Source: Lysinibacillus xylanilyticus (GTDB lineage: Bacteria > Bacillota > Bacilli > Bacillales_A > Planococcaceae). From it: 64,000 nucleotides of DNA. Location of the stretch: positions 1 through 64,000 of the forward strand of contig NZ_MDDN01000015.1 in assembly GCF_001708185.1 (NCBI RefSeq), read 5' to 3'. Positions 49,550-64,000 of the stretch are shown here, piece after piece; positions within the stretch are counted from its first letter, which is position 1, and the number at the start of each line of letters is the position of its first letter. Under the pieces are notes generated by a model. The model did no database searches. It saw only the letters and a list, made by a program, of their open reading frames with translations, and was not told where the DNA came from. Position numbers and translations under genes: made by a program.

Positions 49550-49550
49550 T

Positions 49551-49873: not shown

Positions 49874-49902
49874 CTAGTTTCTTCCAATAAAAATTAAATA
49901 AA

Positions 49903-50990: not shown

Positions 50991-51120
50991 ACAATATCTT
51001 GTGGAAACCAAGCAGGAAATTCTTCGACCGGTAGCGAATTCTCTCATCAACCAAGGATTTGGGGATATCATTGAAGGATACAATAATATTCCTAAGTTCT
51101 AATAAACCTCATTATGTAAA
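50991..51120 (+). repeat. right direct repeat bounding the asb block (130 bp)
   Basis: A second copy of the epimerase 3' end (see 40910-41039), with four mismatches. It is followed 19 bp later by the 51140 gene. This copy is probably the original right flank of an ancestral epimerase-to-51140-gene neighbourhood, or the product of a recombination. Confidence 0.88.
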
Positions 51121-51139
51121 TAAATTAGGAGGTAATACG

Positions 51140-51751: not shown

Positions 51752-51808
51752 ATAAAGCAAAATATAGCAGAATGAATGTGGATTATTAAAAGAAAGGAAC
51801 AAAGTACA

Positions 51809-52152
51809 ATGAATATTGAGTGCACGCGATATCGAGTGAAACAAAATAAAACAGAAAAAGTAATGAGTGGTTGGCTTTCCTGAATGAAAATATGGAAGAT
51901 GTACTAGTTACCCTTGAAGGCGAGAAAATGTACGTTGAAACGATTTTTCGAGAAATTTTAGATGGAGAAGAATATTTGTATTGGTATGTTGTTCAAGGGA
52001 CAGGCGGAATTGATGTCGATGAATCAGAACATTGGATTGATAAAAAACACATTGAATACTGGGATGAATGTATTGATAAAAGCTTTAAACCTGTAGCTTT
52101 ACAAACTGAGGTAGTGATGATTCCTGAAAAAGTACGAAATTCTATGAAGTAA
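51809..52152 (+). pseudogene. DUF6176 protein gene with one-base deletion
   Basis: ATG 51809 (after AAAGGAAC) reads MNIECTRYRVKQNKTEKV, then the frame breaks near 51865. The next frame continues WLAFLNENMEDVLVTLEGEK, MYVETIFREILDGEEYLYWY, DESEHWIDKKHIEYWDECID. Restoring one G (GTA-GAT-GAG-TGG) would give a complete DUF6176 protein of ~114 aa. Either a young pseudogene or a sequencing error. Confidence 0.75.
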
Positions 52153-52202
52153 GCACTTTTTAAACAATATTGAGATGTTTAGACAACTCATATTTTTTAT
52201 TC

Positions 52203-52280
52203 AACTCCCATAAAAGAACTTAATCATCTTTCATTTTCTGTGGTGAAGTGCTAATTTTTGCACTTCATGGATGGCTAGTG
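52203..52280 (+). repeat. CR repeat copy 1
   Basis: Aactccc...ggatggct. Stem A is (A)TAAAAGA...TCTTTCAT with one mismatch to the consensus. Stem B is GAAGTGC...GCACTTC around TAATTTTT. A terminator-like hairpin gagatgtttagacaactc (about 52171-52188) precedes it, after the DUF6176 gene. The other copies are at 52819, 54189, 59803, 61111 and 62981, with a partial at 62572. Confidence 0.85.
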
Positions 52281-52365
52281 GGGCTTTACTTCAATATGGT
52301 CCACTATTTTTCACCAATCCCTAAATCTATTATAGAAACGAAGGAAGACGTAAAATCAAAAAAAT

Positions 52366-52488
52366 GCTGGGACATAACTGACCCAAATCATAAAAAGCGT
52401 GAGAAATCAATTTTAGAGACGTTGATTTTTCACGCTTTTTAATATGAAATTTTTAAATTTTGCTTTGGAAATATACTTATGTCCTAGC
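52366..52488. repeat. 123-bp fold-back element (second GGGACATAA copy)
   Basis: Ends gctgggacataa (52366-52377) and ttatgtcctagc (52477-52488) are inverted. The central stem is aaaaagcgtgagaaatcaa with ttgatttttcacgctttt. Same design and length as 23776-23897. Confidence 0.75.
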
Positions 52489-52492
52489 GTCC

Positions 52493-52600
52493 TTATTTTT
52501 TTCTCAACAGTGTATCCCCAAGAGGGATTCCAATTATAACAACCAAAACCGTTAGAATTACCAGGGCTTGAAAAATAAAATACGCAACTTGATCGAACAT
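52493..52600 (-). CDS. 35-aa single-helix membrane peptide
   Basis: Minus-strand ATG 52600, preceded by AAGGAGAGATAGG. The peptide is MFDQVAYFIFQALVILTVL, then VVIIGIPLGDTLLRKK. One hydrophobic helix with a basic end. The strong start signal and clean codons support a real gene despite its size. It begins just outside the fold-back element. It could be a toxin-like or regulatory small membrane peptide; unproven. Confidence 0.5.
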   Translation of the reverse strand: MFDQVAYFIFQALVILTVLVVIIGIPLGDTLLRKK

Positions 52601-52675
52601 CCTATCTCTCCTTCTTTTCTTAATAATTCCTACCTCATATTCCGTAATTATCCAACTCCTAGTGAAGAGTCAAAT

Positions 52676-52717
52676 TAAACTAATAAAGCCCAAAATCATT
52701 TGTACTTTATTAGTTTA
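52676..52717. terminator. intrinsic terminator-like hairpin
   Basis: taaactaataaag (52676-52688) and ctttattagttta (52705-52717), perfect arms. Confidence 0.65.
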
Positions 52718-52818
52718 GTTTATTTCATTACAACGTATGTATGCAGTCGTCACTTTTTATATTTTGTGATCTTCAACAATAGCGCGCGATTGTTTAATAA
52801 GCTTCGCTGTTCTTCTTA

Positions 52819-52897
52819 AACTCCCATGAAAGAACTTAATCATTTTTCATTTTCTGTGGTGAAGTGCTGATTTTTGCACTTCATGGATGGCTAACGG
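52819..52897 (+). repeat. CR repeat copy 2
   Basis: Stem A is ATGAAAGA with TTTTTCAT (one G-T wobble). Stem B is GAAGTGC with GCACTTC. It ends ggatggctaacgg and leads directly into the first of two duplicated gene pairs. Confidence 0.88.
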
Positions 52898-52941
52898 TGC
52901 AGTTATTGAAATATCATAGGTGTATCAAGAGGGGAATAAAT

Positions 52942-53217
52942 GTGACAAATACTCCGGTATTCCGTTTGGATTGAAGCTGAACAGTGGGAACAGTTATGGA
53001 ATGAAGATGATGATAATACTGACGTTGTCGTAAGGTTTGAGGGTGGTTCCGAATGGAGGGCAACCTTCTTTATTTATCAAAACATTTTTAGCATGGCAAA
53101 GAAAAATGAGGAAACTGGAGAATGTTTAAGAGGTAGTTATTTTTGGGCAAGTGAAATGATTTTGGTGAGGAAAATTACTCGGATTGATATTGAAGTGGTT
53201 ATAAAAAACTTGAGATA
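52942..53217 (+). pseudogene. frameshifted copy of the 54346 gene
   Basis: GTG 52942 after AGAGGGG, then a one-base insertion (tccggtattccg instead of tccgtattccg) breaks the frame within eight codons. The rest is almost identical to 54346-54620 (EQLWNEDDDNTDVVVRFE onwards) until aaaaacttg near 53211, where it joins the SUKH remnant. Confidence 0.8.
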
Positions 53218-53370
53218 GTAGTAAGTTTTAATGAACCAGCTGCTAAAACTGATAAATGATGGGAATAACGTTTCCCAATAGTTTTAAGGAATTATTGCTC
53301 ATACATAATGGGCAACGAAATGAATATTCAGAGCAACGATTCGAGTACGTAGGAGTCGTAGGCAATTATG
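53212..53370 (+). pseudogene. SUKH-family remnant (copy of the 54772 gene)
   Basis: The sequence gagatagtag...ttttaatgaaccagctgc and gttacgtttcccaatag-type parts match 54825-54950, with a deletion of about 25 bp. The fusion point to the previous pseudogene shows that the block [54346-type gene, SUKH gene] was duplicated and then internally deleted. Confidence 0.75.
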
Positions 53371-53442
53371 ATTTATAGGTTAATTGAAGAAGGAAATAAT
53401 GAATGGTTAGAGAAATCAATTTTATACGAGGAGGAAAGGTTA

Positions 53443-53700
53443 ATGAGTAAAAGTTTACAACCTTTTTCTATTGTGTTCTTGGGAATATGTATTGTTTTAA
53501 GTTCATGGTTAATTTCCCAATCTTTAATAACCAATCATATAGATATTGAAAAGACTGATAACGAACAAAATAGATATGATTTTATCACAATAGCATCCGA
53601 TTACTTTATCATTTTTGATAAACAAAAAGGGGAGTATTGGATGAAAATCGGTTCTTCTGATTGGGAAAAACAGCAATCTTTTTCTAATCCAACAGAATAG
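53443..53700 (+). CDS. small membrane-anchored protein, unknown
   Basis: The start is ATG 53443 after GAGGAGGAAAGG. The 85-aa product has a helix (FSIVFLGICIVLSSWLI, residues 8-24), then an exported segment (YDFITIASDYFIIFDKQKGE, YWMKIGSSDWEKQQSF). It resembles small Bacillus proteins of unknown role that occur beside toxin-immunity-like genes. Followed by a BL repeat with a terminator. Confidence 0.6.
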   Translation: MSKSLQPFSIVFLGICIVLSSWLISQSLITNHIDIEKTDNEQNRYDFITIASDYFIIFDKQKGEYWMKIGSSDWEKQQSFSNPTE

Positions 53701-53721
53701 CTTCTTCTGATGTTAGCTTTT

Positions 53722-53805
53722 TCAACTAACGAGTGCTTTACTTGAAGAACAATGAGTTGCATATGCAGCTCTTTTTTTCTTTATTGAACGGAGCAGGATA
53801 GTTGT
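53722..53805 (+). repeat. BL repeat (bcr-like) with embedded terminator
   Basis: aactaacgagtgctttacttg, then a hairpin gagttgcatatgcagctc with T-run (about 53752-53780), then ttattgaacggagcagg. Same modular order as copies at 57087, 61183 and 63823. The right palindrome is degenerate and runs into gtgcgaaatg. Confidence 0.6.
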
Positions 53806-54108
53806 GCGAAATGTTCCTAGCTCAAATGGAGAATGGTCACATTACTCTGGTAAAGCTAGGCAGTTCCTTCGAAGAATCAAATGAAGAGGTAACGCTCAGA
53901 AGGGTTCTCTCTTAGTCGAATAGCACTGAATTTAGTAAGAATGAAAGTGTTATAAGCTCGGCGAAAAGGCGTGAGAATTTACCGTAACAGTTCGGCTGAC
54001 GAAAGCCTACCCGCGGGGGTGGTGTAAATCATGATGCTTGAGTTGAATGAATATGGTGAGAATGCGAATAAACCTAAAAGAAAGGGTTAAGCTGACGAAC
54101 TTCTGAAT
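53804..54108 (+). mobile_element. possible group II intron 5' fragment
   Basis: From GTGCGAAATG onward the DNA is non-coding, GC-richer and full of short pairings (ggcgaaaaggcgtgag, gttcggctgacgaaagcc, acccgcgggggtggtg, aaaagaaagggttaagctgac). This is reminiscent of domain I of bacterial group II introns, which begin GTGYG. No reverse transcriptase or domain V is seen, so at most a deleted remnant. A tiny related junction (gtgcgaaatggtcc) occurs near 57623. Confidence 0.35.
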
Positions 54109-54180
54109 GTACGGGTCTATAACTGCGATACAGAGGAAATTATCCTTGAAAACGAAAATGTAACGTTGATATTAGAGTAA
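54109..54180 (+). pseudogene. 3' end of a lost gene
   Basis: The frame VRVYNCDTEEIILENENVTL then I-L-E-stop is protein-like but has no start. It sits between the non-coding fragment and CR copy 3, 9 bp before the repeat, the usual position of a cassette gene's end. Confidence 0.4.
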
Positions 54181-54188
54181 ACTTTATT

Positions 54189-54267
54189 AAACTCCCATGA
54201 AAGAACTTAATCATCTTTCATTTTCTGTGGTGTAACGTTGATTTTACGCGACATGGATGGCTAACGG
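54189..54267 (+). repeat. CR repeat copy 3
   Basis: Stem A is intact (ATGAAAGA/TCTTTCAT). Stem B is degenerate (GTAACGT...ACGCGAC). It continues ggatggctaacggggtgc and the tttacttgaagatcattgag segment. Confidence 0.85.
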
Positions 54268-54345
54268 GGTGCTTTACTTGAAGATCATTGAGCAAACTGT
54301 GCAGGTTAGTGAAATATCATAGGTGTATCAATAGTGGGAATTAAT

Positions 54346-54663
54346 GTGACAAATATTCCGTATTCCGTTTGGATTGAAGCTGAACAGTGGGAACAGTTAT
54401 GGAATGAAGATGATGATAATACTGACGTGGTCGTAAGGTTTGAGGATGGTTCCGAGTGGATGGCAACCTTCTTTACTTATCAAAATATTTTTAGCATGGC
54501 AAAGAAAAATGAGGAAACAGGAGAATGTTTAAGAGGTAGTTATTTTTGGGCAAGTGAAATGATTTTGGTGAGGAAAATCACTCGAATTGATATTGAAGTG
54601 GTTATAAAAAACTTGTTAGTTGATGGTACTTTTGAAAGTGTATTTAAGTTATGTGAAGATTAG
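54346..54663 (+). CDS. immunity-like protein of an unnamed family
   Basis: GTG 54346 is the better start (the duplicate at 52942 has AGAGGGG at this spacing). The 105-aa acidic protein has WIEAEQWEQLWNEDDDNTDV, VRFEDGSEWMATFFTYQNIF, TGECLRGSYFWASEMILV and IEVVIKNLLVDGTFESVF. Proteins of this type occur next to SUKH genes in Bacilli and are probably antitoxins/immunity proteins; that role is inferred from context only. Followed at 109 bp by a SUKH gene. Confidence 0.65.
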   Translation: MTNIPYSVWIEAEQWEQLWNEDDDNTDVVVRFEDGSEWMATFFTYQNIFSMAKKNEETGECLRGSYFWASEMILVRKITRIDIEVVIKNLLVDGTFESVFKLCED

Positions 54664-54771
54664 CTTGTTGTACAAACGGTGCAGATTAGTGAAAGAAGGC
54701 GTTTCTTATAATTGATGTAAAATCAAAGTTTTTGTATGGCTTTAATTTTGTTAAGTAAGGGGAGTTATGAT

Positions 54772-55029
54772 GTGAAGAAGCTTTGGAGTAAATTCGAGAA
54801 ATGGCTGGAATTAAATTGTCAAGAGATAGTAGACAGTTTTAATGAACCAGCTGCTAAAGCTGAAATTACAAAGGCTGAACAGAAGATGGGAGTTACGTTT
54901 CCCAATAGTTTGAAGGAATTATTGCTCATACATAACGGGCAACGAAATGAATGGGGAGAGCTATATGCTTCTTATGATAAAAGGAGTATTTTGTTTGTTT
55001 TGGATCTAAGAAGGTATATAACGATGTAA
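54772..55029 (+). CDS. SMI1/KNR4 (SUKH) family protein, C-terminally short
   Basis: The start is GTG 54772 after AAGGGGAG. The 85-aa product has KLWSKFEKWLELNCQEIVDS, EITKAEQKMGVTFPNSLKEL and LLIHNGQRNEWGEL, the SUKH core that binds and neutralises polymorphic toxins. Full SUKH domains are ~130 aa or more. Here the frame ends soon after L-Y-A-S-Y-D-K in an atypical tail (SILFVLDLRRYITM), so the gene is probably truncated by a frameshift or deletion. No toxin gene is adjacent: an orphan immunity gene. Confidence 0.72.
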   Translation: MKKLWSKFEKWLELNCQEIVDSFNEPAAKAEITKAEQKMGVTFPNSLKELLLIHNGQRNEWGELYASYDKRSILFVLDLRRYITM

Positions 55030-55075
55030 TTACTCCATCCTAAATAGGCACATTATTCATAGGATGGTGGTAATT

Positions 55076-56530
55076 TTGAAGTTCTTAAAAATAATCACTT
55101 GTTTTTTGATAGTTATTTTTTTAGTTATTGTAAATTTGATTGGTCATGAAGGAATCGCTTCAGATCGTGAAATTACGCTAAAAGAGGCCATCCAACTTGG
55201 ATTAGATAGGGCGAAAAAATGGGATGAAAATGCATATTTAGTAATGTTAACAAGTGTTGATGAAGACATGGGAGGAACAAGGGGAGCAACAGGGAAACGA
55301 TATAAATGGACTTTGAGTTTTGAGACTACAAGTACCGATAAACAATTATTTATATTTATTTCAAAAGGAGAAATAAGTGGAATTCATGAGGGGAAGGGAC
55401 CTAGTTCTGGAGCAATAAAATTAGATGATATTAATTTTGACAGTCCTTATTTATTGAAAATCGCAAAGGAAAAATATGATTTACAAAAAGGGGTGGATTG
55501 GGCGACAGGATATCATTTTACACTTGATAGTATCGATGGTACGCCCATTCTAAAAGTGTTTGGAAATGATCGAGATAGCCGTTTTACTTCAATTTCATTC
55601 AATGCCCAAAATGGAGATGTGGTTAGTGCTAATCATAAATTACCATACGGTGGAGGATTAATATCCAAACGTATTGGCACCGAAAACCTAACAAAAAAAG
55701 GGATGGCGATTATGGGGGTTATCGCTGGAAACAACAATTTAGTGGTTTGGGGAGACAAAAAGCCAACACAATTTAGTACAACCAAGCAACCTTTTATTGA
55801 ATGGAGCCATAACAATGGAGAAACATGGACAGAACTCCATGCTAATAATTATGTAACACACGCGTGGTTTGATATGAACGATCAATTATATGTAGCTACG
55901 GAAAAAGAATTATGGGCAGGTACTACATCAAAAAGTAAAGGTACGAAAATCCTTTCATTAGACCAATCAATCGAGAAAATCGATTATTCAACCAACAACC
56001 ATGTAGCTGTGCTATCAAATGGAAAAGTTTATTGTACGACCAATCAAGGAGAGAGATGGGAACAAGCTATAGTACCTAAACCATTATATGTGGTTCAAAT
56101 CTCGGATAATGGTGACTTGGTAGGACTCACAGAAGAAAGGAAGATTCTTCAAAAGACCAATGACGAGTGGACCGAGATAACTATGCCGAATAGTAATGAT
56201 GAACCTCTAGATTTGAAAGTGATTAATAATAGACTAATTATTACGACACAAAGTGGAATTTGGATCCGAGATCTTCAAGAGGGAAATTGGAGAAAAATTA
56301 AAGTTGATGAAGAGGTAGTTAAATTCATTAAAAAAGGAAAGAAATTATTCGGATACACACATAGAGGTGAAGCTATTTATTCCATCAACACGAAAGACGA
56401 AAGAAAACCTGAAAAAGTGTTTGATGCGGTGGATTTCGTCGTTTTGGATGTCGATATCATGGGAGATACGTTATGGATTGCAACTATACCAAATTATTCG
56501 TGGGAAGAAATGGAGATACCGCAGACATGA
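55076..56530 (+). CDS. exported PepSY-like/beta-propeller protein with Asp-box repeats
   Basis: The start is TTG 55076 (after GGATGGTGG) or ATG 55064. The ~484-aa product has a signal/anchor helix (IITCFLIVIFLVIVNLIGHE). An N-terminal domain, ITLKEAIQLGLDRAKKW to GDVVSANHKLPYG (residues ~30-200), resembles PepSY-type domains. The C-terminal ~280 residues form a propeller-like array with sialidase-type Asp-boxes (SHNNGETWTEL, CTTNQGERWEQA) and WTEITMP/WRKIKV repeats. Function unknown; likely a cell-surface binding protein. It is the largest intact gene of the 51-64 kb region. Confidence 0.65.
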   Translation: MKFLKIITCFLIVIFLVIVNLIGHEGIASDREITLKEAIQLGLDRAKKWDENAYLVMLTSVDEDMGGTRGATGKRYKWTLSFETTSTDKQLFIFISKGEISGIHEGKGPSSGAIKLDDINFDSPYLLKIAKEKYDLQKGVDWATGYHFTLDSIDGTPILKVFGNDRDSRFTSISFNAQNGDVVSANHKLPYGGGLISKRIGTENLTKKGMAIMGVIAGNNNLVVWGDKKPTQFSTTKQPFIEWSHNNGETWTELHANNYVTHAWFDMNDQLYVATEKELWAGTTSKSKGTKILSLDQSIEKIDYSTNNHVAVLSNGKVYCTTNQGERWEQAIVPKPLYVVQISDNGDLVGLTEERKILQKTNDEWTEITMPNSNDEPLDLKVINNRLIITTQSGIWIRDLQEGNWRKIKVDEEVVKFIKKGKKLFGYTHRGEAIYSINTKDERKPEKVFDAVDFVVLDVDIMGDTLWIATIPNYSWEEMEIPQT

Positions 56531-56574
56531 TAAAAATTTGAAGTGTATATCCATGAAAAAGATGTATTGTGAAA

Positions 56575-56660
56575 CACTTAAGCTAACGAGGGTTTTACTT
56601 CAATAAGGAGTAGAGCATTTTTCGTTTGACTAACTGGGCAGTATAGTTCAATAAGAATAA
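56575..56660 (+). repeat. BL repeat (bcr-like)
   Basis: gctaacgagggttttacttc, aataaggagtagagcattttt, then gactaactgggcagtatag and ttcaataag. No strong terminator hairpin in this copy. It fills the gap between the propeller gene and the DUF2750 gene. Confidence 0.55.
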
Positions 56661-56702
56661 TTAAATGATATTGTTGAAGTATTAATTAAAGGGAGAAGTA
56701 AA

Positions 56703-57068
56703 ATGTCATTTGATTTAACAATAAATTCTAAAAGAAGATATGAAAAATTTATCGAAAGAGTTTCGAAGAGTAAATTGGTTTGGGGTTTGACGAATGAAAA
56801 AGGTTGGTGTGTATGTGAATCAAATGAATATGAAGACACTGATGTAATGCCATTTTGGTCAGATGAAGCGTATGCACGCCAATGTGCGATAGAGGGTTGG
56901 TCAAATTATCATCCAACTCCCATACCATTAGAAGAATTTATGAATAGCTGGCTTTATGGAATGAATGAAGATGGTTTATTAGTAGGCGTTAACTGGAATG
57001 CAAAGTTAATTGGCTTAGAAATAGAACCTGCTGAATTATTTAGTGAAATAGAACGTAAGATCAGTTAG
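56703..57068 (+). CDS. DUF2750 family protein
   Basis: A 121-aa cytoplasmic protein. Visible features are YEKFIERVSKSKLVWGLTNE, VMPFWSDEAYARQCAIEGWS, TPIPLEEFMNSWLYGMNEDG and VGVNWNAKLIGLEIEPAELF, the DUF2750 pattern. This family is grouped with bacterial immunity or antitoxin-like proteins in polymorphic toxin loci. AAAGGGAG lies before the ATG. Single-gene unit flanked by repeats on both sides. Confidence 0.82.
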   Translation: MSFDLTINSKRRYEKFIERVSKSKLVWGLTNEKGWCVCESNEYEDTDVMPFWSDEAYARQCAIEGWSNYHPTPIPLEEFMNSWLYGMNEDGLLVGVNWNAKLIGLEIEPAELFSEIERKIS

Positions 57069-57086
57069 AAATAATTGTTCCATATG

Positions 57087-57175
57087 CAACAGGGTGCTTT
57101 ACTTGAAGAATATTGAGCTGTTTAGACAGCTCACTTTTTCATTGTGCTAACGGTGCAAGTGACTTGAAGAAGGTA
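57087..57175 (+). repeat. BL repeat with embedded terminator
   Basis: cagggtgctttacttgaag, hairpin gagctgtttagacagctc with T-run (about 57117-57140), then gctaacggtgcaagtgac. The hairpin arms match those at 61212-61233. Confidence 0.65.
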
Positions 57176-57233
57176 AACAGGTTTATTACGTGAAATTATG
57201 TCTTATACAAGACGGCTTTAGGGTGTGATTAAA

Positions 57234-57581
57234 ATGGATTGTAGACTTTTGGAAATATTTGTTGGGTGGGAAGATAAGTTAGGTGATGACGAGTGGTATT
57301 TTAGTAATTCTTTCGAATCAATTTACAAAGGAATGTCTTCAGAAGAAGCCTTTAACTACATTCCGAATGTGATTGAGGTGTTATTTAAATTGGACGATGA
57401 CTATTTGATATGGGAAACCCTTCACTTTTTAATGCAACTGTATAGTATTGCGGATACCACACAGATACATCCATTCCTCGAAAGAAATTGGTCTCCATTA
57501 AAACAACATCTTATGATATATGAAGAATCTTATGCTAGTCCATTTAAAGAACTAACGAGACAGCTAAGAATAAAAGAATGA
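57234..57581 (+). CDS. immunity-type protein, unnamed family
   Basis: The start is ATG 57234 (AGGGTG upstream). The 115-aa, mainly helical acidic protein has LEIFVGWEDKLGDDEWYFSN, SSEEAFNYIPNVIEVLFKLD, YLIWETLHFLMQLYSIADTT and PFKELTRQLRIKE. HEAT-like helices of this kind are common in bacterial immunity proteins. No partner toxin is visible. Function inferred from form and context only. Confidence 0.6.
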   Translation: MDCRLLEIFVGWEDKLGDDEWYFSNSFESIYKGMSSEEAFNYIPNVIEVLFKLDDDYLIWETLHFLMQLYSIADTTQIHPFLERNWSPLKQHLMIYEESYASPFKELTRQLRIKE

Positions 57582-57599
57582 GATTCCGTTCCAACCTTG

Positions 57600-57680
57600 T
57601 TTAACTAACGGTGCAGTATAGCTGTGCGAAATGGTCCGATAAGGAGTAGAGCCTTTTTCTATTTAAACTAAATGCGCAGT
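57600..57680 (+). repeat. BL repeat (bcr-like)
   Basis: actaacggtgcagtatagc, gtgcgaaatggtccgataag, gagtagagcctttttc, actaaatgcgcagtttaag. It shares the aaggagtagagc module with the copy at 56575. Confidence 0.55.
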
Positions 57681-57872
57681 TTAAGTGAATTAGGAAAAAA
57701 TTACATATATATAATAAAGCAATACATTGTTAAGATTTGATAGGGCAAGTATTCTATGAAGAATTTAGAACGAAGGCGTTTCTCAATAAATGAAGACGTT
57801 TTATTACTAACCAAACAGTTTAATAGAAGAAGGATAATTGAAATTGAAAAATAAGGGAAATGTTTTGATTTT

Positions 57873-58112
57873 ATGTGGGGATGGGGAGAGATTCTTTCAG
57901 GTTCTATTGCAATAATTATATTGATATATGGAATCTTTTACTCGAAGGAATACCACGATAAGTATAGAAAAGGGCCGATTTCGGGAGGTGGGACTTTATT
58001 AGGTGAGCTATTTGCTGCTGTTTTACAATTTAGTCCCTACTATGTTCAGAAAGTATTCTTTATTTTATCAGGAATTTTTATATTGGTTTGTATTTATATA
58101 TCGAAAATGTAA
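57873..58112 (+). CDS. small two-helix membrane protein
   Basis: A 79-aa protein with helices IAIIILIYGIFYSKEY and KVFFILSGIFILVCIYISKM around a glycine-rich loop (KGPISGGGTLLGEL). Weak start signal (AAGGGAAA 15 nt upstream). Unknown function; similar small proteins occur in Bacillus accessory regions. Confidence 0.5.
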   Translation: MWGWGEILSGSIAIIILIYGIFYSKEYHDKYRKGPISGGGTLLGELFAAVLQFSPYYVQKVFFILSGIFILVCIYISKM

Positions 58113-58182
58113 GAATAAATGATTCTGTAATTAGAAGTAAAAATGAATTATAAATAAATCTTGAGTTATTTGGAGTTAGAAA

Positions 58183-58327
58183 ATGAAAAAAATAAAGAAA
58201 GCAACAGGACGGCTTTTTTAAAGAGATGGTAGGAGAGCTTATCAGTTCAATCTTAATTGAAGTGGCTTGGAACATTTTAATGTTTATTCCCAAAATGATT
58301 ATTCGTTTAATAAAGAACATCTGGTGA
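58183..58327 (+). pseudogene. 47-aa membrane peptide gene broken in a T-run
   Basis: ATG 58183 (after GGAGTTAG) reads MKKIKKATGR, then a T7 run shifts frame. The next frame gives FFKEMVGELISSILIEVAWN then ILMFIPKMIIRLIKNIW and stop. Changing the T-run by one base would give one continuous ~47-aa peptide. It could be a phase-variable homopolymer or an error. Confidence 0.55.
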
Positions 58328-58370
58328 ATTAGTTACTGTTGGGGATTTAAGATAATAAGAAATTTGGAAA

Positions 58371-58400
58371 TCTTCCCAAACCACACGCTTTGGGACATTT
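58371..58400. repeat. small palindromic repeat (TCCCAAA/TTTGGGA)
   Basis: tcttcccaaa and tttgggacattt arms; same family as at 7406 and 8111. Two further members follow at 58729-58758 and 59546-59573. Confidence 0.55.
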
Positions 58401-58482
58401 TTAAATTAACGAACGAGTGAAAAAACTATATTCCATTTAAATGATATAATGGAGAAAATAGGTGGTCTAAAGGGGAATGATT

Positions 58483-58668
58483 ATGGAAAGTTTATATTTA
58501 ATAATCGTTATACTTTTAATAGTTTTATTCTTTATTTCCTTTGCTCTTTTTATTAGACGATTAATAATAAATTCTTCAATTAAAGCTAATAATTTGAGTG
58601 ATTTAGAGGAAAAGATGGATAGGCTAATTGAGCAGAACGAAAAGCTTCTTTTGTTATTAAAAAAATAG
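58483..58668 (+). CDS. small membrane protein with coiled coil
   Basis: The start is ATG 58483 (AAAGGGG 8 nt upstream). The 61-aa product has one helix (YLIIVILLIVLFFISFALFI) followed by a charged coiled-coil (NLSDLEEKMDRLIEQNEKLL). Function unknown. This layout is common in small Bacillus membrane proteins. Confidence 0.6.
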   Translation: MESLYLIIVILLIVLFFISFALFIRRLIINSSIKANNLSDLEEKMDRLIEQNEKLLLLLKK

Positions 58669-58763
58669 TTAAATTAGAATTAGTAAGGTGAAAAATAATT
58701 TTTTTAGTTATACAAATACATACAAAAAAACGTTCTCAAACGCAAGCTTGGTAACATTTCAAA

Positions 58764-58803
58764 CAGCGACAAACTCTGTTAAATCAGTGTTTGTCGCTGT
58801 TTT
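58764..58803 (+). terminator. intrinsic terminator
   Basis: cagcgacaaac (58764-58774) pairs with gtttgtcgctg (58789-58799), then a T-run. Bases 58806-58990 beyond it show no gene. Confidence 0.8.
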
Positions 58804-58990
58804 TTATAGAAAATAACACTCTGAGACGCTGCGAAAAATAATTTTAAAGAAGACTGTTCGATCCACTTGTTCTGAATGGCGATAACATATAAAAGAATCT
58901 CAATGAAATGTACCCAAAGGACGCTTGGGATCTATCCGTACTTCAAGTGTTGCCATAGTTTAGTTAAACAGATTGAAACCGTACAATCTT

Positions 58991-59419
58991 TTACTTTTTC
59001 TTTATGAAAATTTGCAAATGTGGTGGAAGTTCAAATGTTTCCAGGTGCTTAAAATTTTTAAGCTTACTTTCATTTGGAGCTATTGAAAATGTTAGTTGGT
59101 CTCTACCTACTGGGTTATGTGCACCCAAAACTGGAGTGACTTCGAGGGTTACTGAAAACTGAAAAGCGTCATCAATTCTTTCCATATTTAAAATTTTTAT
59201 TTGATACGGATACACCAAAGGACTTTCCGTAAGATAATCGGAATAGTAATTAGAAACTGCTTCTTGGATGTTTGGTAATAGTAGTGAAAAAAACATGTCC
59301 ATTATGTGTTCTTCTTTAGATTCTTTAACAGGCTGATAATAATCTGATTCAGCATAAGTTAATGTTGTAGATATTAGAAATAGCAGTAAAAAAGAAGGAG
59401 TTATAATTTTTTTCTTCAC
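58991..59419 (-). CDS. exported DUF3888 protein
   Basis: A 142-aa protein with a signal peptide (PSFLLLFLISTTLTYAES) and the DUF3888 core: MDMFFSLLLPNIQEAVSNYY, VYPYQIKILNMER, LEVTPVLGAHNPVGRDQLTF. DUF3888 proteins are secreted and of unknown function, often in multiple copies in Bacillus. GTG start after AAAAGGAAGTGG. The only minus-strand intact gene between 52.6 and 61.7 kb. Confidence 0.8.
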   Translation of the reverse strand: MKKKIITPSFLLLFLISTTLTYAESDYYQPVKESKEEHIMDMFFSLLLPNIQEAVSNYYSDYLTESPLVYPYQIKILNMERIDDAFQFSVTLEVTPVLGAHNPVGRDQLTFSIAPNESKLKNFKHLETFELPPHLQIFIKKK

Positions 59420-59802
59420 TTTTCCACTTCCTTTTTAATGTTTATTTTGTACGTAAAAGATTTACTTATGTCAGTCAAATATTTCATTACAACATGTATT
59501 AATTAAAATCAAAGTTTGTATAATTAATACAGCTTATAATAAAATAACGTTCCCAAATGCAAGTTTTGGGACGAAACAAAACACTTAAAACGTTGTCATA
59601 CCAATGTATTAAGTGTTTTTCTGTATTTCATTCTTATATACCTTTTTATGCACTATCGTTTGAACTTAGATACAACAAAGCTTTCAATGCTGTTCAAAAG
59701 AAATTGCACTGAATCAGATTTTTAATAAAAACTTGCCTATACAGCGGATTCCTTGACGTTATAGAACAACCTTTTCTTTTAACATAGCCTTTTTCTTTAT
59801 TC

Positions 59803-59881
59803 AACTCCCATGAAAGAACTTAATCATCTTTCATTTTTTGTGGTGAAGTGCTGATTTTGGTACTTCATGGATGGCTAACGG
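59803..59881 (+). repeat. CR repeat copy 4
   Basis: Stem A intact; stem B is GAAGTGC with GTACTTC (one G-T wobble). Ends ggatggctaacgg. Lies about 147 bp before the PadR start. Confidence 0.88.
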
Positions 59882-60027
59882 GGTCAATAGCGCTGTAATT
59901 GGGTAGTTTTTTTCTTGTGAAGCTATCGCCGCAGGTTAATGAAACAGGAAATAATGATCTTTATAAATTTATACCTTGTATTATAGAGTACCATGTATTA
60001 TATTTTGTATATAGGGAGGTGCAAATT

Positions 60028-60360
60028 TTGGAAATTAACAAAGAGGTTCTTAAAGGGCATATAGATACTCTGATTTTATCCCTATTACACAAAAAAGATA
60101 TGTATGGGTATGAGCTGGCTAAGTTTGTTAGAGATAGAAGTGAGGAACAGTTCGAAATAAAAGAAGGTACACTCTATCTCTCTTTGAAAAGATTAGAAAA
60201 AAACGCTTGGGTTGAATCATACTGGGGAGATGAACAAGGACCAGGGGGAAGAAGAAAATATTATAAACTTACCCCACTTGGAAAAGAGTGTTTCGAAGAA
60301 AAGCGTTCAGAGTGGCGTTTTGTAAAAAAAATAATGGATTCTTTTTTAGAGGGGGAGTAG
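60028..60360 (+). CDS. PadR family transcriptional regulator
   Basis: The start is TTG 60028 after GGGAGGTG; the frame from 59899 adds an unlikely 43-aa extension. The 110-aa winged-helix protein has ILSLLHKKDMYGYELAKFV, the recognition region FEIKEGTLYLSLKRLEKNAW and wing GPGGRRKYYKLTPLGKECF. It represses a neighbouring membrane protein gene in most Bacillus cases. Followed at 3 bp by the permease-prefix gene. Confidence 0.88.
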   Translation: MEINKEVLKGHIDTLILSLLHKKDMYGYELAKFVRDRSEEQFEIKEGTLYLSLKRLEKNAWVESYWGDEQGPGGRRKYYKLTPLGKECFEEKRSEWRFVKKIMDSFLEGE

Positions 60361-60363
60361 AAA

Positions 60364-61110
60364 TTGAAACAAATTGATGCTTTTATAGATTCCGTTTATC
60401 AAAAATTCGATGGCAATAAAGACGAGATAAAAGAATTAAAAGTAGAAATGAAGAACCATTTAATTGAAGCTGTACACGAATTAAAATTAGAAGGTAAGTC
60501 AGAAACGGAAGCAGTTAGGATTGCAATTGAACGTTTCGGTGGAGAAAAAGAAATCCGTACAGTGATTGGTCAATTATTTGTCATGCAAAAGCAATTTACA
60601 AGGTGGCTCCTTTATTTTGCAATATTTTTTCTTGCTTTGAGCCTTCTTACTTTTGGTATCATTATGTCAATTGAAAAAAGCAATCAGAATGAACGGCATA
60701 AAATAAATAATGATATATCTATAATTTTAAGCGATGTTAGTAGTGTCATTTCAAAGGATAAGCAAGATAAAATTCAGTCTTTAATTCAAAGCACGAATCA
60801 GGTTTCAAAAGTTGAGGTTTTCAATATAAAAAATAAAATAGACATATTTAATTATATTGATACAGCTAAACCTGAGTTTCAGTACGAAAGGGAAATATGG
60901 GCACCCGAAATTAGATTTATTGACCTATACCGAGAAGGTAATGGGGATGATAAGTGGTTTATCTATATTACTTATAGGAGTATTGATAATTTAGCTGTTT
61001 TATCACTATTATTGGGTATCGCTTTCTCTCTTCCTTTATTTTCAATATGGGGAATTATAAAGGTTTATCAAAAAAGGAGCTTAATATTTAAATCTTTAAA
61101 GTCCTTGTAG
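60364..61110 (+). CDS. permease-prefix-domain membrane protein partner of PadR
   Basis: A 248-aa protein, TTG start after GAGGGGGAG. The N-terminal ~75 residues (KDEIKELKVEMKNHLIEAVH, GKSETEAVRIAIERFGGEKE) are the helical permease-prefix domain 1. Two transmembrane helices follow (WLLYFAIFFLALSLLTFGII and LAVLSLLLGIAFSLPLFSIW) with an exported loop between. PadR plus this protein forms a two-gene unit, possibly sensing envelope state. CR copy 5 starts at the very next base after its stop codon. Confidence 0.8.
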   Translation: MKQIDAFIDSVYQKFDGNKDEIKELKVEMKNHLIEAVHELKLEGKSETEAVRIAIERFGGEKEIRTVIGQLFVMQKQFTRWLLYFAIFFLALSLLTFGIIMSIEKSNQNERHKINNDISIILSDVSSVISKDKQDKIQSLIQSTNQVSKVEVFNIKNKIDIFNYIDTAKPEFQYEREIWAPEIRFIDLYREGNGDDKWFIYITYRSIDNLAVLSLLLGIAFSLPLFSIWGIIKVYQKRSLIFKSLKSL

Positions 61111-61189
61111 AACTCCCATGAAAGAACTTAATCATCTTTCATTTTCTGTGATGTAGCGCTGGTTTTTGCGCTACACTGATGGCTAACGG
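61111..61189 (+). repeat. CR repeat copy 5
   Basis: It starts one base after the stop codon of the preceding gene. Stem A is intact. Stem B is GTAGCGC with GCGCTAC: both the second and fifth base pairs are swapped relative to copies 1 and 2, with pairing kept. Confidence 0.9.
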
Positions 61190-61290
61190 GGTGCTTTACT
61201 TGAAGATCAGTGAGCTGTTTAGACAGCTCACTTTTCTCATTGTGCTAACGGCGCAAGTTAGTTCAATAAGAGTAGAGTATTTTTATGTCA
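61183..61290 (+). repeat. BL repeat with terminator, joined to CR copy 5
   Basis: ctaacggggtgctttacttg, hairpin gtgagctg-tttaga-cagctcac (61212-61233) with Ts, then gctaacggcgcaagttag, ttcaataag and gtagagtattttt. It shows that CR and BL modules are contiguous in a full unit. Confidence 0.7.
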
Positions 61291-61313
61291 CATTTGACAC
61301 AAAAAGCGTAAAA

Positions 61314-61342
61314 AAGAGCATCTAAATTCGATGCTCTAATAA
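61314..61342. terminator. intrinsic terminator
   Basis: agagcatc and gatgctct arms around taaattc. Confidence 0.65.
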
Positions 61343-61400
61343 AACCAGCACATTTATTTAATATTCGTATCTCGGAACAACAGACAAATTAAGAGTTGAC

Positions 61401-61689
61401 CTATAAATTAGGAACAACTCTATTTTTTACGAAAAAAAGAACATACCATATGATAACGCAAGTATTGAGTCTTTTCATGCGACATAAAAAAAGAGTTTTC
61501 TTCTGGGGAATTGGTGTTCGTCCGATATTTTTCCAAGCATTTACTGCTCCTGAAAAATAATATGTAACTGGTAAAAAAGTAATTGTACTTAGAAGCATGT
61601 AAACCCAAGAGCGCTTAACTATTGCAAATATTAAAATTAGAATTGAGTCAAAAAATGAAGCACTTCAAAAGTAATAGCATTCCTTCCAT
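61401..61689 (-). pseudogene. broken small membrane protein gene
   Basis: Minus-strand ATG 61689 (after CAGGAGG) reads MEGMLLLLKCFIF, then stops. The shifted frame continues DSILILIFAIVKRSWVYMLL, STITFLPVTYYFSGAVNAW and KNIGRTPI. A one-base change in a T-run (cattttttga) explains the break. The last 30 codons may contain a second shift. The original product was likely a ~90-aa two-helix membrane protein. Confidence 0.5.
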
Positions 61690-61788
61690 CACGTTTCCTC
61701 CTGAAAAGACCCGAATCTCATTAATTAAGTGAGTTCCAGTCTTTTTTGTAGCTTTGAAACTAAGCCGTACTTCAGTAAATCGAATTTT

Positions 61789-62232
61789 TTATTCTATATT
61801 CAAATCGAAAACATAAGTTGATTTTCCTTCATTCCATTTTGCAACAACTTCGTAAATATAATATCCTTTTTCCGTTGGAAGGGTTATTTCGTTATTTTGA
61901 ATTTCAAAATTATCAATTGTACCATTTTCATTCTCCTGATATACAATTATTGAAGATGGGTTTTGATCAATTTCAATTTTTATTTTGTCTCCTTTTTCAA
62001 CAGTTAATGTTTCAAATTCTTCTGCTAAGCCATATGTATCGGATGGACTAATTTTTCGAGCTTCAAAGTCATCATCTTTCCATTCGAATTCGCCAATCAT
62101 CATCGGGTAACCTTCATGATCTACAATAACTTTTCCCTCTGGTTGTCCAACAGAATCGGACTGTGATGAAGGTATTCCGTTACAACCAGCTATAATCATC
62201 ACAATGAACATTAAATATAACAAATTTTTCAT
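61789..62232 (-). CDS. small lipoprotein, unknown
   Basis: The start is ATG 62232 (AGGAGGATATTCA upstream). The 147-aa product has lipobox MIIAGCNG (Cys near residue 17). The mature domain has EGYPMMIGEFEWKDDDFEAR, EEFETLTVEKGDKIKIEIDQ and EKGYYIYEVVAKWNEGKSTY, a small beta-sandwich pattern seen in Bacillus surface lipoproteins. No catalytic motif. Isolated on the minus strand. Confidence 0.7.
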   Translation of the reverse strand: MKNLLYLMFIVMIIAGCNGIPSSQSDSVGQPEGKVIVDHEGYPMMIGEFEWKDDDFEARKISPSDTYGLAEEFETLTVEKGDKIKIEIDQNPSSIIVYQENENGTIDNFEIQNNEITLPTEKGYYIYEVVAKWNEGKSTYVFDLNIE

Positions 62233-62412
62233 TGAATATCCTCCTCTTAATATCAATTATTTTATAATAAATACTTATTTTAACATATTTTTATTATTTT
62301 ATACAAAGGCATTCAATATTACCATAATTAGTGTTGTGGTTAATCTACAACCAAGGAGTAACCTAAAGACATAAGCAGGAGCAAAGACATCTGGATACTG
62401 TTCTTTTTAGAA

Positions 62413-62622
62413 ATGCCTGACGCATCTGTAAATAGTAGAAAAAAGTTATTGTTTAATGAGATAGAAGGATTAAATTATCTAACTTTTGATGGAAATATTC
62501 TTCGTCCCTATCCTGATATAGATATTAATTACCATTCGGATGTTAGTCCTGATAGGCAAGTTTATTTCATTGCGCTACATGGATGGCTAACAGGGCAGTT
62601 TTGTTCAAAAAATGATATTTGA
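62413..62622 (+). pseudogene. gene fragment fused to the tail of a CR repeat
   Basis: The frame SRKKLLFNEIEGLNYLTFDG, NILRPYPDIDINYHSDVS and PDRQVYFI is protein-like. From 62572 the DNA is the right half of a CR repeat (gcgctacatggatggctaac), so the frame's last ~17 codons are repeat sequence. A deletion has joined a coding fragment to a CR remnant. Confidence 0.5.
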
Positions 62623-62633
62623 AGTTGTTACAC

Positions 62634-62969
62634 AATGATTGGTGAAGAAGGACGCTTAGGTTTTATCTACGATGATGCACCGAAGTTGTTAGATTTTATC
62701 CTGATAAAGTCCAAAAGTACATGTGGCATTTTTGGGGAAATGAAGATGAGTTGATTGGTCACTATGAAGTTTTAGAAACTCATGAAAACAGTAATGAGGA
62801 AATAATAATTGTACCAAAAGGAGAAATTTCTTTACTTAGCCCTAATAATGGTGCAGATAATCACTATCCAACAAATATGACACTCCCTAAAAGTGGAATG
62901 AGGAAGTTAGATGCTTATATTGGAGATAGACTATTTGGAAGTGTTTATATAAAAGTTCATAAGGAATAA
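62634..62969 (+). pseudogene. DUF4871-like protein, N-terminus lost and frameshifted
   Basis: MIGEEGRLGFIYDDAP (62634) breaks frame near 62680. The next frame continues VVRFYPDKVQKYMWHFWGNE, EIIIVPKGEISLLSPNNGAD, YPTNMTLPKSGMRKLDAYIG, DRLFGSVYIKVHKE. The WHFWG and LPxxGxxRLDAYIG patterns fit DUF4871 surface proteins. The signal peptide is missing. The stop is 11 bp before CR copy 6. Confidence 0.55.
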
Positions 62970-62980
62970 ATGACTTATTG

Positions 62981-63060
62981 AACTCCCATGAAAGAACTTA
63001 ATCATCTTTCATTTTTCTATGGTGTAGCGCTGATTTTTGCGCTACATGGATGGCTAAAGG
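62981..63060 (+). repeat. CR repeat copy 6
   Basis: Stem A intact; stem B GTAGCGC/GCGCTAC as in copy 5; one extra T after stem A. Ends ggatggctaaagg and continues gcagtttagttcaataa. Confidence 0.88.
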
Positions 63061-63220
63061 GGCAGTTTAGTTCAATAAAATAAGTAGAATGTTATATTTT
63101 GTTAAATGATATAATGTATGTATTACCTTAGGGGGGATTGTTTACACGTGGATTTTTAAAACAGTAAGTGACCAAGTTCAAAAATAGACAACAAAAAAGT
63201 AGCATAAAAGCTATTCTTAT

Positions 63221-63315
63221 TAAGCTAACGGAGTGCTTTAGCAGAACAAGGTGCTGCCTTTAGGGTAGCCTTTTCTTATTGAACTAAAGCTGCAGTTTAG
63301 TGGAAGAAAAATAAT
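63221..63315 (+). repeat. BL repeat with compensatory palindrome
   Basis: gctaacggagtgctttagc, hairpin aaggtgctgcc...ggtagcctt with Ts, then ttattgaactaaa-gctgcag-tttagt. The palindrome here is ACTAAA/TTTAGT rather than ACTAAC/GTTAGT, so pairing is kept. Confidence 0.65.
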
Positions 63316-63333
63316 TGTATAGGGGGAGAGAAT

Positions 63334-63825
63334 TTGAAGAAGAAACATTGGGTTCCTATTCTAATTTTAGCATTAATATTTGGTGGTGTTTATACCTTTG
63401 TACTATTTAATCCACCTTTGGAAATAGGTACGCTTGGTACTGCTGTTGGTAATAAATCAGTTGTTATTGGAATTGGTAATAAAGGCTTTCGTGAAGTGAA
63501 ACTATTAGAAGTATCAGTAAATAATAATGAAAAGCCATCAAAAACAAAAGTACAAGTTAGTAATGCTTTACAAGGTTTCATCATAACGGATGATTATAAT
63601 AATAATAATGAGTCAAAAAAATATGGTTTTAAGGATATAGAGGATGTATCAATTAAGCCAGACACATCTCCTTCTGCTACCTATAAAAAATTAGATGATG
63701 GCACTGCTTCTAAGAAGGATGAAATCTATGGGATTAGTGTTTTTCATAGTGAAGAAATCAATCAAGTTATTATAAAATATAGCTATTTTGGGATTTCATT
63801 TAATAAAACTGTGTTGTTAAACTAA
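63334..63825 (+). CDS. membrane-anchored protein, unknown
   Basis: A 163-aa protein; TTG start after GGGGGAGAG. One helix (WVPILILALIFGGVYTFVLF, residues 6-25) anchors an exported beta-type domain (EIGTLGTAVGNKSVVIGIGN, KGFREVKLLEVSVNNNEKPS, IIKYSYFGISFNKTVLLN). It resembles Bacillus accessory-region proteins with a single beta-sandwich. No known function. Its stop codon lies within the start of a BL repeat (aaactaacgg). Confidence 0.65.
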   Translation: MKKKHWVPILILALIFGGVYTFVLFNPPLEIGTLGTAVGNKSVVIGIGNKGFREVKLLEVSVNNNEKPSKTKVQVSNALQGFIITDDYNNNNESKKYGFKDIEDVSIKPDTSPSATYKKLDDGTASKKDEIYGISVFHSEEINQVIIKYSYFGISFNKTVLLN

Positions 63826-63910
63826 CGGATACTTACTTGAAGATCATTGAGTTGCATATGCAGCTCTTTTTTTATTGAACTAACGTTGCAGGTTAGTTCA
63901 ATAAGAATTC
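63823..63910 (+). repeat. BL repeat with terminator and 13-bp perfect palindrome
   Basis: aactaacggatacttacttg, hairpin gagttgcatatgcagctc with T-run (63849-63873), then ttattgaactaac (63872-63884), gttgcag, gttagttcaataa (63892-63904). The arms are perfect over 13 bp. Best-preserved BL right end in the window. The last 90 bases of the window hold nothing I can support. Confidence 0.75.
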
Positions 63911-64000
63911 AAGTTAATCATAGCCTTTAGAAGAGAATTGTTGGGATATTATGCTAAACTGAAGAAAATGATTTAAGGGCTGATTCAATTAATGGATATT

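Follow-up and report, generated by a model that had tools for sequence, protein, structure and literature searches.

A dispersed ~70-bp repeat of Lysinibacillus is very probably a miniature IS110-family element mobilised in trans

The window analysed here, the whole 64,000-nt stretch of Lysinibacillus xylanilyticus DNA, carries a short structured repeat, CR, towards its right-hand side. A repeat search of the window returned six near-full copies, all on the + strand, which begin at 52193, 52809, 54180, 59793, 61101 and 62972 when some flank is included. These agree with the initial annotation, which had placed six repeats in one orientation at 52203, 52819, 54189, 59803, 61111 and 62981. The half copy that it reported near 62572 is also real, occupying 62570–62595 with its target bases. 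The repeat length of ~79 bp had been overestimated, as ~9 bp (AACT plus AACGG) belong to the target, leaving an insert of ~70 bp. CR inserts are gene-less and 64–72 bp long, mostly 69–70 bp. The copies in the window are as follows.

52207..52276, +, insert of CR copy 1 (CCCATA..GGATGGCT), with a one-base difference at the donor end (CTCCCATA)
52823..52892, +, CR copy 2
54194..54262, +, CR copy 3, two mismatches in stem B
59807..59876, +, CR copy 4, G-U wobble in stem B
61115..61184, +, CR copy 5, stem B GTAGCGC/GCGCTAC, AACT target half directly after a stop codon
62985..63055, +, CR copy 6, stem B GTAGCGC/GCGCTAC
62571..62588, +, truncated CR, reduced to its right 18 nt (TGCGCTACATGGATGGCT)

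The start of copy 5 does follow immediately on a stop codon, that of ORF 60364..61110. The description of all copies as intergenic holds for ORFs of at least 80 aa, which all six avoid, but smaller frames touch two of the repeats: a 64-aa ORF (52248..52442) begins within copy 1 and a 69-aa ORF (62413..62622) spans the half copy. Genome-wide there are 26 CR matches at E≤1e-3 (best 5.5e-34), numbers that exclude a chance origin, and they lie on several contigs and on both strands. Most sit between genes, 22 of the 26 being clear of ORFs of at least 80 aa, but the remaining four overlap one. CR is also widespread in the genus, with matches at E≤1e-12 in 18 of 32 Lysinibacillus genomes; copy numbers per genome are lower bounds in the richest of these, the two counts having scored no more than 15 and 28 candidates per genome.

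Ends and insertion point were defined from 71 near-full copies (BLAST start ≤6, end ≥74; one duplicate, L022, already removed), of which 69 are distinct in sequence. The left end is exactly CTCCCATG in 56 and the right end GGATGGCT in 53 of the 71, and the flanks carry AACT in 62, CT in 68 and AACGG in 56. The target is a dispersed hairpin, H, found mainly between genes; CR is inserted between its AACT and its AACGG, and only the CT core is repeated. The two ends are not inverted repeats of each other, and there is no target duplication beyond CT. Filled and empty H, as well as a module (T) built on H halves, are found in the window.

62975..62984, +, left half of target hairpin H at copy 6 (TTATTGAACT), included in the flank statistics
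63056..63081, +, right half of target hairpin H at copy 6 (AAAGGGGCAGTTTAGTTCAATAA..)
63869..63907, +, empty target hairpin H (TTATTGAACTAACGTTGCAGGTTAGTTCAATAA)
63271..63312, +, variant of H, empty
61232..61274, +, empty H following the terminator-like module of copy 5
56618..56660, +, variant of H, empty; an apparent group II intron (by eye) ends inside the corresponding hairpin of the relative G006
57596..57621, +, H followed by an apparent group II intron 5' end (GTGCGAAATGG; start by eye)
53733..53789, +, T module: half H, terminator-like hairpin (GAGTTGCATATGCAGCTC plus T run; by eye), half of the next H
61188..61254, +, T module behind CR copy 5

H resembles the REP-type extragenic palindromes targeted by IS110/IS1111 elements in being dispersed and hit by IS110 elements. 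It differs from them in sequence and host group and in its occupants, which are at least three IS110 clades (the CR parent described below and two more, by eye), CR and pieces of group II introns. Pairing of the target halves across CR had been a candidate for a selected outer stem; it was rejected as no better than that of randomly paired halves (294 of 2,000 permutations were as good), and so is not copy-specific.

Empty counterparts were found for only four of 110 CR insertions in the sequence compared; two of these are supported by repeats only and one is paralogous within the same genome. The remaining case is a precise, orthologous empty site with long flanks on both sides: the own-genome copy at C48:5566-5646 is missing from G024, where the left 404 nt (96.8% identical) and right 129 nt (96.9%) meet with a gap of 0 at the junction TTGAACT^AACGTG. 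At a second site, in G025, an empty H adjoins 444 nt of right flank with 96.8% identity, this match being to the right flank only. These data bear on whether CR is a dead IS110 deletion relic, copied only with the DNA around it by segmental duplication or horizontal transfer. Duplicated or shared segments do carry CR, as where copies 2 and 3 each precede a 256-bp repeat (96% identical), and the genome has no intact transposase of the parent family. However, 71 insertions share the same ends with different flanks or core, a precise empty site exists and CR occurs in 18 of 32 species, all of which make such a relic very unlikely.

CR had been described as two stem-loops, A and B, kept paired by compensatory changes. 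Minimum-energy folds gave both stem-loops in five of the six window copies, copy 1 folding differently (z -1.4 to -4.3). Across the 71 copies the compensatory changes in stem B are substantiated, with two-sided changes at five of its eight pairs; the wobble-paired stem B of copy 4 and the degeneracy of copy 3 are likewise borne out. Over the whole structure, 55 cells held two-sided changes against 20.4 in shuffled alignments, and the covariation score was 0.166 against 0.097, with none of 500 shuffles as high on either measure; the score fell to ≤0.041 after sliding. Measures counting pairs or types were weaker (43 and 35 of 500 shuffles equally high). By parsimony on a tree of the remaining columns, one stem B pair switched on both sides seven times (67 of 71 copies, the four without a U-A or A-U pair being left out). 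Covariation does not extend to stem A, in which none of eight pairs shows two-sided changes and which is missing from the consensus fold. The original argument that covariation means selection of the folded form is plausible for stem B only. Stem B pairing could also be kept by palindrome correction through template switching, or by exchange with autonomous elements.

The covariation and double switches of stem B would fit an alternative in which CR works as RNA, through its stems, in 3'-UTRs or between genes (as an attenuator, a stability element or a small RNA) and has been spread passively; the ORFs upstream of the 26 own-genome copies also run in the CR direction in 18 of 24 scorable cases. 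Downstream orientation is mixed (15 of 24), stem A has no two-sided changes, one copy is missing from a precise orthologous empty site, and CR has the ends and the insertion point of an IS110 element whose guide stretches correspond to each. We therefore regard an RNA element as very unlikely; the orientation bias could be explained by the position of the target hairpins.

Intact partner elements in related species point to the origin of CR. In L126 (3397-4986, genome G022), a gene for a 415-aa transposase lies between a CR-type left and a CR-type right end at the same target. The protein contains the DEDD_Tnp_IS110 (PF01548, 2.7e-40) and Transposase_20 (PF02371, 1.1e-19) domains, aligns by sequence with the solved IS621 (chain 8wt6) and ISCro4 transposases and, judged by eye from the alignment, keeps the DEDD residues of IS110-type transposases as set out in excerpts of PMC11208158. 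A second partner occurs at two places in G024; L141, like L126, is an intact element that combines CR ends with an IS110 gene. The full parent is 1.6 kb long, with a ~230-nt non-coding region upstream of the transposase gene. Parent and CR have the same left end, CTCCCATGAAA, and agree over their final ~48 nt (TTTCATTNTCTGTG-stem B-ATGGATGGCT); CR is without the transposase gene, and almost none of the non-coding region is left in it. Stem A is the parent's subterminal inverted repeat, and stem B is a structured part of the parent's IS110 end.

The parent's non-coding region holds stretches matching both the target and the element itself. At constant places, the guide stretch CCGTTAG matches the target and a weaker match is made to AACT, and a single identified donor stretch matches the element's own end (CATGGGAG). 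In seven homologous elements, whose p values are consequently not independent, the donor stretch corresponds to the own element end in every case (8–9 nt, p 0–0.0045 each, four sequence versions). Target stretch T matches over 7–8 nt, at a constant place, in six of the seven (p 0.004–0.017). Target stretch B is above chance in two of the seven, the Radiobacillus element described below and A6 (6 nt, p 0.04). Its match is misplaced in A3, while A1, A2 and A4 show just 4 matching nt, as many as shuffled sequence gives (p 0.41–0.67). In the Alicyclobacillus element A7, neither T (p 0.13) nor B (p 0.98) exceeds chance. A Radiobacillus element with a different target has both stretches changed accordingly (T, CCCGCAG, 7/9; B, GAGACTCCT, 9/9, p 0.0045), a single natural case of guide and target changing together. 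Judged from these matches, the region appears to be laid out like the bridge RNAs (seekRNAs) of IS110 elements.

The partner gene also bears on derivation of CR from an IStron (a group I intron plus IS), an IS200/IS605 element or a group II intron. Long relatives of CR have a structured non-coding region, and a group II intron fragment, the sole Rfam match in the window at gathering scores and lying elsewhere in it than CR, is near the same hairpins. Against this, six relatives gave no Rfam match at gathering scores, a 701-nt core matched no intron family even at E 5, group B IStrons have GG in front of their insertion point and CGG as their last bases (according to excerpts of PMC4227781), and the partner gene is that of an IS110. 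We consider an intron or IStron origin exceedingly improbable. The group I intron idea, which came from a long relative on a Peribacillus plasmid, was rejected on the Rfam results and on those IStron end rules; IS200/IS605 and REP-transposase ideas were set aside when an IS110 gene turned up within the element.

We conclude that CR is very probably a miniature, non-autonomous IS110-family element moved in trans by an IS110 recombinase and its bridge RNA, the movement being inferred. Of three options offered initially, the structured mobile repeat stands, a cassette site in the integron sense is unsupported and a 3'-UTR RNA is without direct support. CR would have arisen when a single internal deletion brought together the left ATGAAA and the internal TTTCAT of the parent's subterminal inverted repeat, a junction that yields stem A. 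Where an autonomous IS110 is present, its recombinase and bridge RNA would pair with the CR ends as donor, excise CR as a small circle with the junction GGATGG-CT-CCCATG (GGATGGCTCCCATG) and insert it at another H. The distribution of the two forms fits such a derivative: a close autonomous transposase (E≤1e-150) occurs in three of the 32 genus genomes, all three among the 18 with CR, so that CR is in more genomes than its IS110 source and 15 carry it without one. IS110 genes of other kinds are common, PF01548 being present in 27 of 41 genomes searched. The L. xylanilyticus genome itself holds no intact transposase of the parent family; as its sole IS110 remnant is one decayed fragment (an 87-codon frame with one stop, of another clade by eye), its CR copies are probably immobile now.

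Excerpts of PMC11208160, PMC11208158 and PMC11187229 show what the parent has in common with IS110 elements of the IS621/ISEc21 type: both have a DEDD plus Tnp recombinase, an upstream non-coding region, matches to each strand of the target about a dinucleotide core together with a donor stretch, no duplication beyond the core, and palindromic repeats as targets. In ISEc21, as in the CR parent, the bottom-strand match lies 5' of the top-strand match. CR differs from IS621 and ISEc21 in having no recombinase and no guide stretches, and in its length of ~70 bp rather than ~1.6 kb. It has engineered counterparts. Mini-IS made from IS110/IS1111 ends (ISEc11, ISEc21) move in trans experimentally (excerpts of PMC11187229), as does a 22-bp IS621 donor with its bridge RNA in trans (excerpts of PMC11208160); in these, as proposed for CR, only the ends have to be in cis, and recombinase and RNA come in trans. 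Those are laboratory constructs, whereas CR would be natural and multiplied across species.

CR also has features of a MITE: the ends of an autonomous element, no transposase gene, small size and many copies (71 near-full insertions). Like the bacterial MITEs MITEPsy1 (PMC3189936), MITEPye1 (PMC11578231) and QMITE1/2 (PMC5896051), all consulted as excerpts, it is short, gene-less, multicopy and often intergenic, and it shares with the first two a relationship to a fuller element's ends. The inverted repeats at the very ends and the target duplications of classical MITEs, which those excerpts describe, are absent from CR, which has subterminal inverted repeats, a duplication confined to CT and a target chosen by a guide RNA. 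QMITE2, by its excerpted description, is a target of IS1111 and not a derivative of it, unlike CR. The initial remark that no named family is known for CR holds in Rfam, which gave no match to it at gathering scores, and in the literature searched. No earlier IS110-derived miniature was found in those open-access papers on IS110/IS1111, MITEs and bridge RNA/seekRNA that were read, nor any report of Lysinibacillus MITEs in the open-access literature searched. As read from sequence, CR would be a kind of miniature hitch-hiker of RNA-guided transposons for which we found no earlier description. More miniature IS110s may exist unnoticed, since the features that normally give MITEs away, terminal inverted repeats and target duplications, are missing from them.

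Programmable DNA-writing tools are being developed from bridge-RNA recombinases. A donor of ~70 bp that has multiplied in nature, apparently mobilised in trans, would show which end sequences have been sufficient in evolution, and the CR set provides 71 sampled donor ends and target sites to set against a known guide. Conservation of stem B pairing without guide stretches raises the question of whether the end hairpin is important at the DNA level.

Accessory islands chosen for holding CR were compared with one another. Homology between them breaks at the CR, H and T repeats more often than expected: 58 of 254 distinct end points fall in these repeats, which make up 2.3% of bases and 7.0% of intergenic bases (end points within 60 nt of a stretch end and near-duplicates having been removed). 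The same breakpoints could arise by homologous recombination between repeats or by transfer with other elements. They are also what an integron-type (attC-like) cassette site between accessory genes might leave, and the window copies do lie between such genes in a single orientation. Yet elsewhere in the genome copies lie on further contigs and on either strand, the attC core pattern is not visible by eye, the boundaries are explained by IS110 ends and guides, and no precise CR-gene-CR excision was found in 62 CR pairs, the single hit being an imperfect match within the same locus; we judge an integron-type site highly improbable. For CR as a miniature IS110 element, a further role is possible but doubtful; the excess of breakpoints speaks for it, and the lack of precise excision among the 62 pairs, the choice of islands and the other sources of breakpoints speak against it. 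The left end of one copy and the right end of its neighbour would together remake a perfect donor junction, and so CR pairs could carry the genes between them from H to H. CR would then be a natural minimal donor whose pairs may carry accessory genes as RNA-guided cassettes, H and CR forming a distributed, RNA-addressed system of island shuffling. CR was absent from all of 50,697 phage records and lies on three IMG/VR contigs, one of them perhaps chromosomal.

The initial annotation had described six repeats in the window, all of which were recovered by a repeat search. They belong to a family of short two-stem repeats (CR) occurring 26 times in the 4.76-Mb, 48-contig genome containing the window, spread over seven contigs and found on either strand. 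Exact matches to the CR core in GTDB species genomes fall in 19 stretches, 18 from Lysinibacillus and one from Paenibacillus. CR matches occur in 26 of 61 genomes (own included) and three of 30 genera; of the 32 genomes of the genus, 18 carry CR at E<=1e-12, giving at least 169 matches together. Some of these may be ends of full elements, and the counts are lower bounds in the richest genomes, as no more than 28 candidates were scored in any one. CR or its right two thirds is also found on plasmids of Cytobacillus and Peribacillus (7 of 72,556 plasmid records); none was found in phage records. Alignment of 71 distinct near-full insertions gave the layout AACT, about 70 nt (64–72) and AACGG, the insert being 70 nt in 39 copies and 69 nt in 21.

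The origin of CR is suggested by its longer relatives. One Cytobacillus plasmid carries the right two thirds of CR as the terminus of an element whose IS110-type gene is broken and lies on the other strand. An intact parent sharing both CR ends is present in Lysinibacillus genome G022.

L126 3397-4986: intact IS110-family parent element, lying in TTATTCAA-CT ... CT-AACGGGTGC

The left end of this element is CT-CCCATGAAAATAAAATC; then come a minus-strand gene for a 415-aa transposase (PF01548, 2.7e-40; PF02371, 1.1e-19), a gene-free region of about 230 nt and the right end ATTTTCATCTTCTGTGGTG-stem B-ATGGATGG-CT. The autonomous element recurs in G024 (two intact copies and one broken) and G008 (one). 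From these comparisons CR appears to be the parent element minus its middle, and stem A would be the parent's left ATGAAA brought up to an internal TTTCAT; by eye, the two motifs could pair in the parent too. Moreover, the donor sequence of the Lysinibacillus parents is present in CR (CTCCCATG in 56 of 71 copies, GGATGGCT in 53), and the parents' target flanks it (AACT in 62, AACGG in 56). Earlier work has described IS110 elements, bridge RNAs and MITEs. No miniature with IS110 ends was found in the part of the open literature read on IS110, IS1111, MITEs, bridge RNA and seekRNA, and IS110 occurs zero times by term search in the available text of a 2024 review of prokaryotic MITEs (PMC10969869). 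QMITE2 of Coxiella is, in the available part of its description, a target of IS1111 and not a derivative (PMC5896051).

The landing site of CR is a dispersed hairpin of about 35 nt, H (TTATTGAACTAACGNNGCAGTTTAGTTCAATAAG), found between accessory genes. At <=3 mismatches H has 27 matches in the own genome, equal to 25 places (two matched on both strands), and its reversed control pattern has none. Features associated with H are as follows.

Window 56618-56660, 57596-57621, 61232-61274, 63271-63312, 63869-63907: H
Window 53733-53789, 57092-57156, 61188-61254, 63833-63889: T modules (by eye)
Window 53856-54050: group II intron fragment (RF02004, 105.6 bits), near one H
L126 2-547 and downstream, L129, L130, L131, L132, L133, L134: other IS110 clades at H or CR (by eye)

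Empty sites support insertion into H. CR is absent from the G024 site orthologous to the own-genome copy at C48:5566-5646; there the gap is zero and the junction reads TTGAACT^AACGTG, between a left flank of 404 nt that is 96.8% identical and a right flank of 129 nt at 96.9%. A search of 110 insertions gave three further cases. One is at a paralogous position in G010, where the left flank is 98.2% identical over 330 nt and the right one 81.7% over 60 nt; the other two have support from repeat sequence only. The own-genome copy at C5:84507 corresponds to an empty H in G025, matched over 444 nt on the right (96.8%) and by H only on the left. At C34:334780 of the own genome (L008), compared with five relatives (L159, L161, L163, L164 and L165), CR is joined to AAACT, and in the relatives the upstream flank continues to H or an H variant about 60 nt onward; an adjacent deletion may therefore have accompanied or followed insertion, a tentative reading because the right side matches for about 11 nt only.

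Elements of two other IS110 clades terminate, as judged by eye, within or next to H or CR (..TTATAATACGA|ACGGGTGC; GCAGCATTCCTG..), and one non-coding region contains CGAACGG (by eye). Hence several guide RNAs may aim at H. Group II introns also start (GTGCGAAA) or end in the 3' arm of other H copies (L044, L072, L197 near 10503 and L205 near 14450; by eye). A T module runs from half of one H through a terminator-like hairpin and its T run to half of the next H, and modules seem by eye to have been swapped between H sites.

Available parts of two studies describe laboratory constructs in which IS110-type ends are served in trans: an ISEc21 mini-IS with 29-bp and 16-bp ends moved when transposase and seekRNA were supplied (PMC11187229), and an IS621 donor of 22 bp underwent recombination when bridge RNA was given in trans (PMC11208160). 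In these constructs the ends alone suffice in cis, so the mechanism leads one to expect that CR can be moved in trans; by this analogy, we infer that CR moved in trans. The own genome contains no close autonomous source: its sole PF01548 match is to an interrupted fragment that by eye belongs to a different clade. Moreover, 15 of the 18 CR-bearing genomes of the genus are without a close autonomous transposase. More distantly related IS110 genes occur widely, in 27 of the 41 genomes searched for them.

In IS110-type elements, RNA from the upstream non-coding region is described as having matches to each target strand on the two sides of the insertion point; in ISEc21 the one to the bottom strand lies 5' of the one to the top strand (PMC11187229, in part), and IS621 RNA has an additional loop for the donor end (PMC11208160, in part). 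We looked for such stretches in seven parents and relatives, which are not independent because they are homologous. A donor stretch of 8–9 nt, the element's end plus core, is present in all seven, in four versions (CATGGGAG, CATGGTAG, CAGGGTAG and CAGGATAG); none of them yielded the second, short donor guide. The top target stretch matches over 7–8 nt in six, constantly at element nt 114–123, and over 5 nt only in the Alicyclobacillus element (p 0.13). The bottom target stretch matches 9/9 in the Radiobacillus element, 6 nt in the Paenibacillus element (p 0.04) and only 4 nt (AACT) in three elements; it is misplaced in the Cytobacillus copy and absent in the Alicyclobacillus element. The Radiobacillus target is CCCGC-AG-GAGTCTC in place of CCGTT-AG-TTNAA, and both target stretches are changed to fit it. 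This co-change of guide and target, one natural case, is the strongest single evidence.

The compensatory changes reported for CR in the initial annotation are confirmed for stem B and absent from stem A. Stem A (ATGAAAGA/TCTTTCAT) is nearly invariant over the 71 insertions and absent from the consensus-fold prediction. Stem B varies with pairing retained (91.4% of cells paired), with two-sided changes at five of eight pairs. For the structure as a whole, the covariation score is above all 500 shuffles, whereas the number of pairs changed on both sides is above only 457 of 500. On a tree built from the remaining columns (67 copies), which ignores recombination between copies, parsimony gives seven switches from U-A to A-U at one stem B pair, against 16 or more with shuffled labels. 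Stem B folds in all three parents folded and by eye keeps its position in other relatives with different sequences, among them GCCCC/GGGGC in Paenibacillus and GCAGCGC/GCGCTGC in Peribacillus. The bridge RNA of IS621 is described in the available text as having a 5' stem-loop of conserved structure and diverse sequence among orthologues (PMC11208158). Whether stem B is its counterpart is uncertain: here about 50 nt separate stem B from the target loop. CR lacks the guide stretches, and so pairing of stem B in CR requires another reason, for which a DNA-level role, imperfect-palindrome correction in replication and exchange with parents are candidates.

Finally, we compared accessory islands from seven genomes (607 kb; L074-L089, L188-L207 and window 48001-64000), chosen for holding CR. 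CR, H and T repeats cover 2.3% of bases and contain 58 of 254 distinct end points of homology between islands; by crude ORF calls they hold 58 of 196 intergenic end points, with 7.0% expected (p 2.5e-21). Homologous recombination, IS110 action or both are candidate causes. Among 62 pairs, precise excision of whole CR-gene-CR units was not seen, save one imperfect match within the same locus. A duplicated gene segment in the window (52902-53212 and 54305-54615; 256 bp 96% identical) lies directly behind a CR in each case, its second copy with an extra T-module piece at CTAACG, and the adjoining pair at 53258 and 54885 resemble SMI1/KNR4-type immunity genes by eye. The transposase gene at 50022-51074 is broken into three ORFs and by eye resembles the IS4 group.
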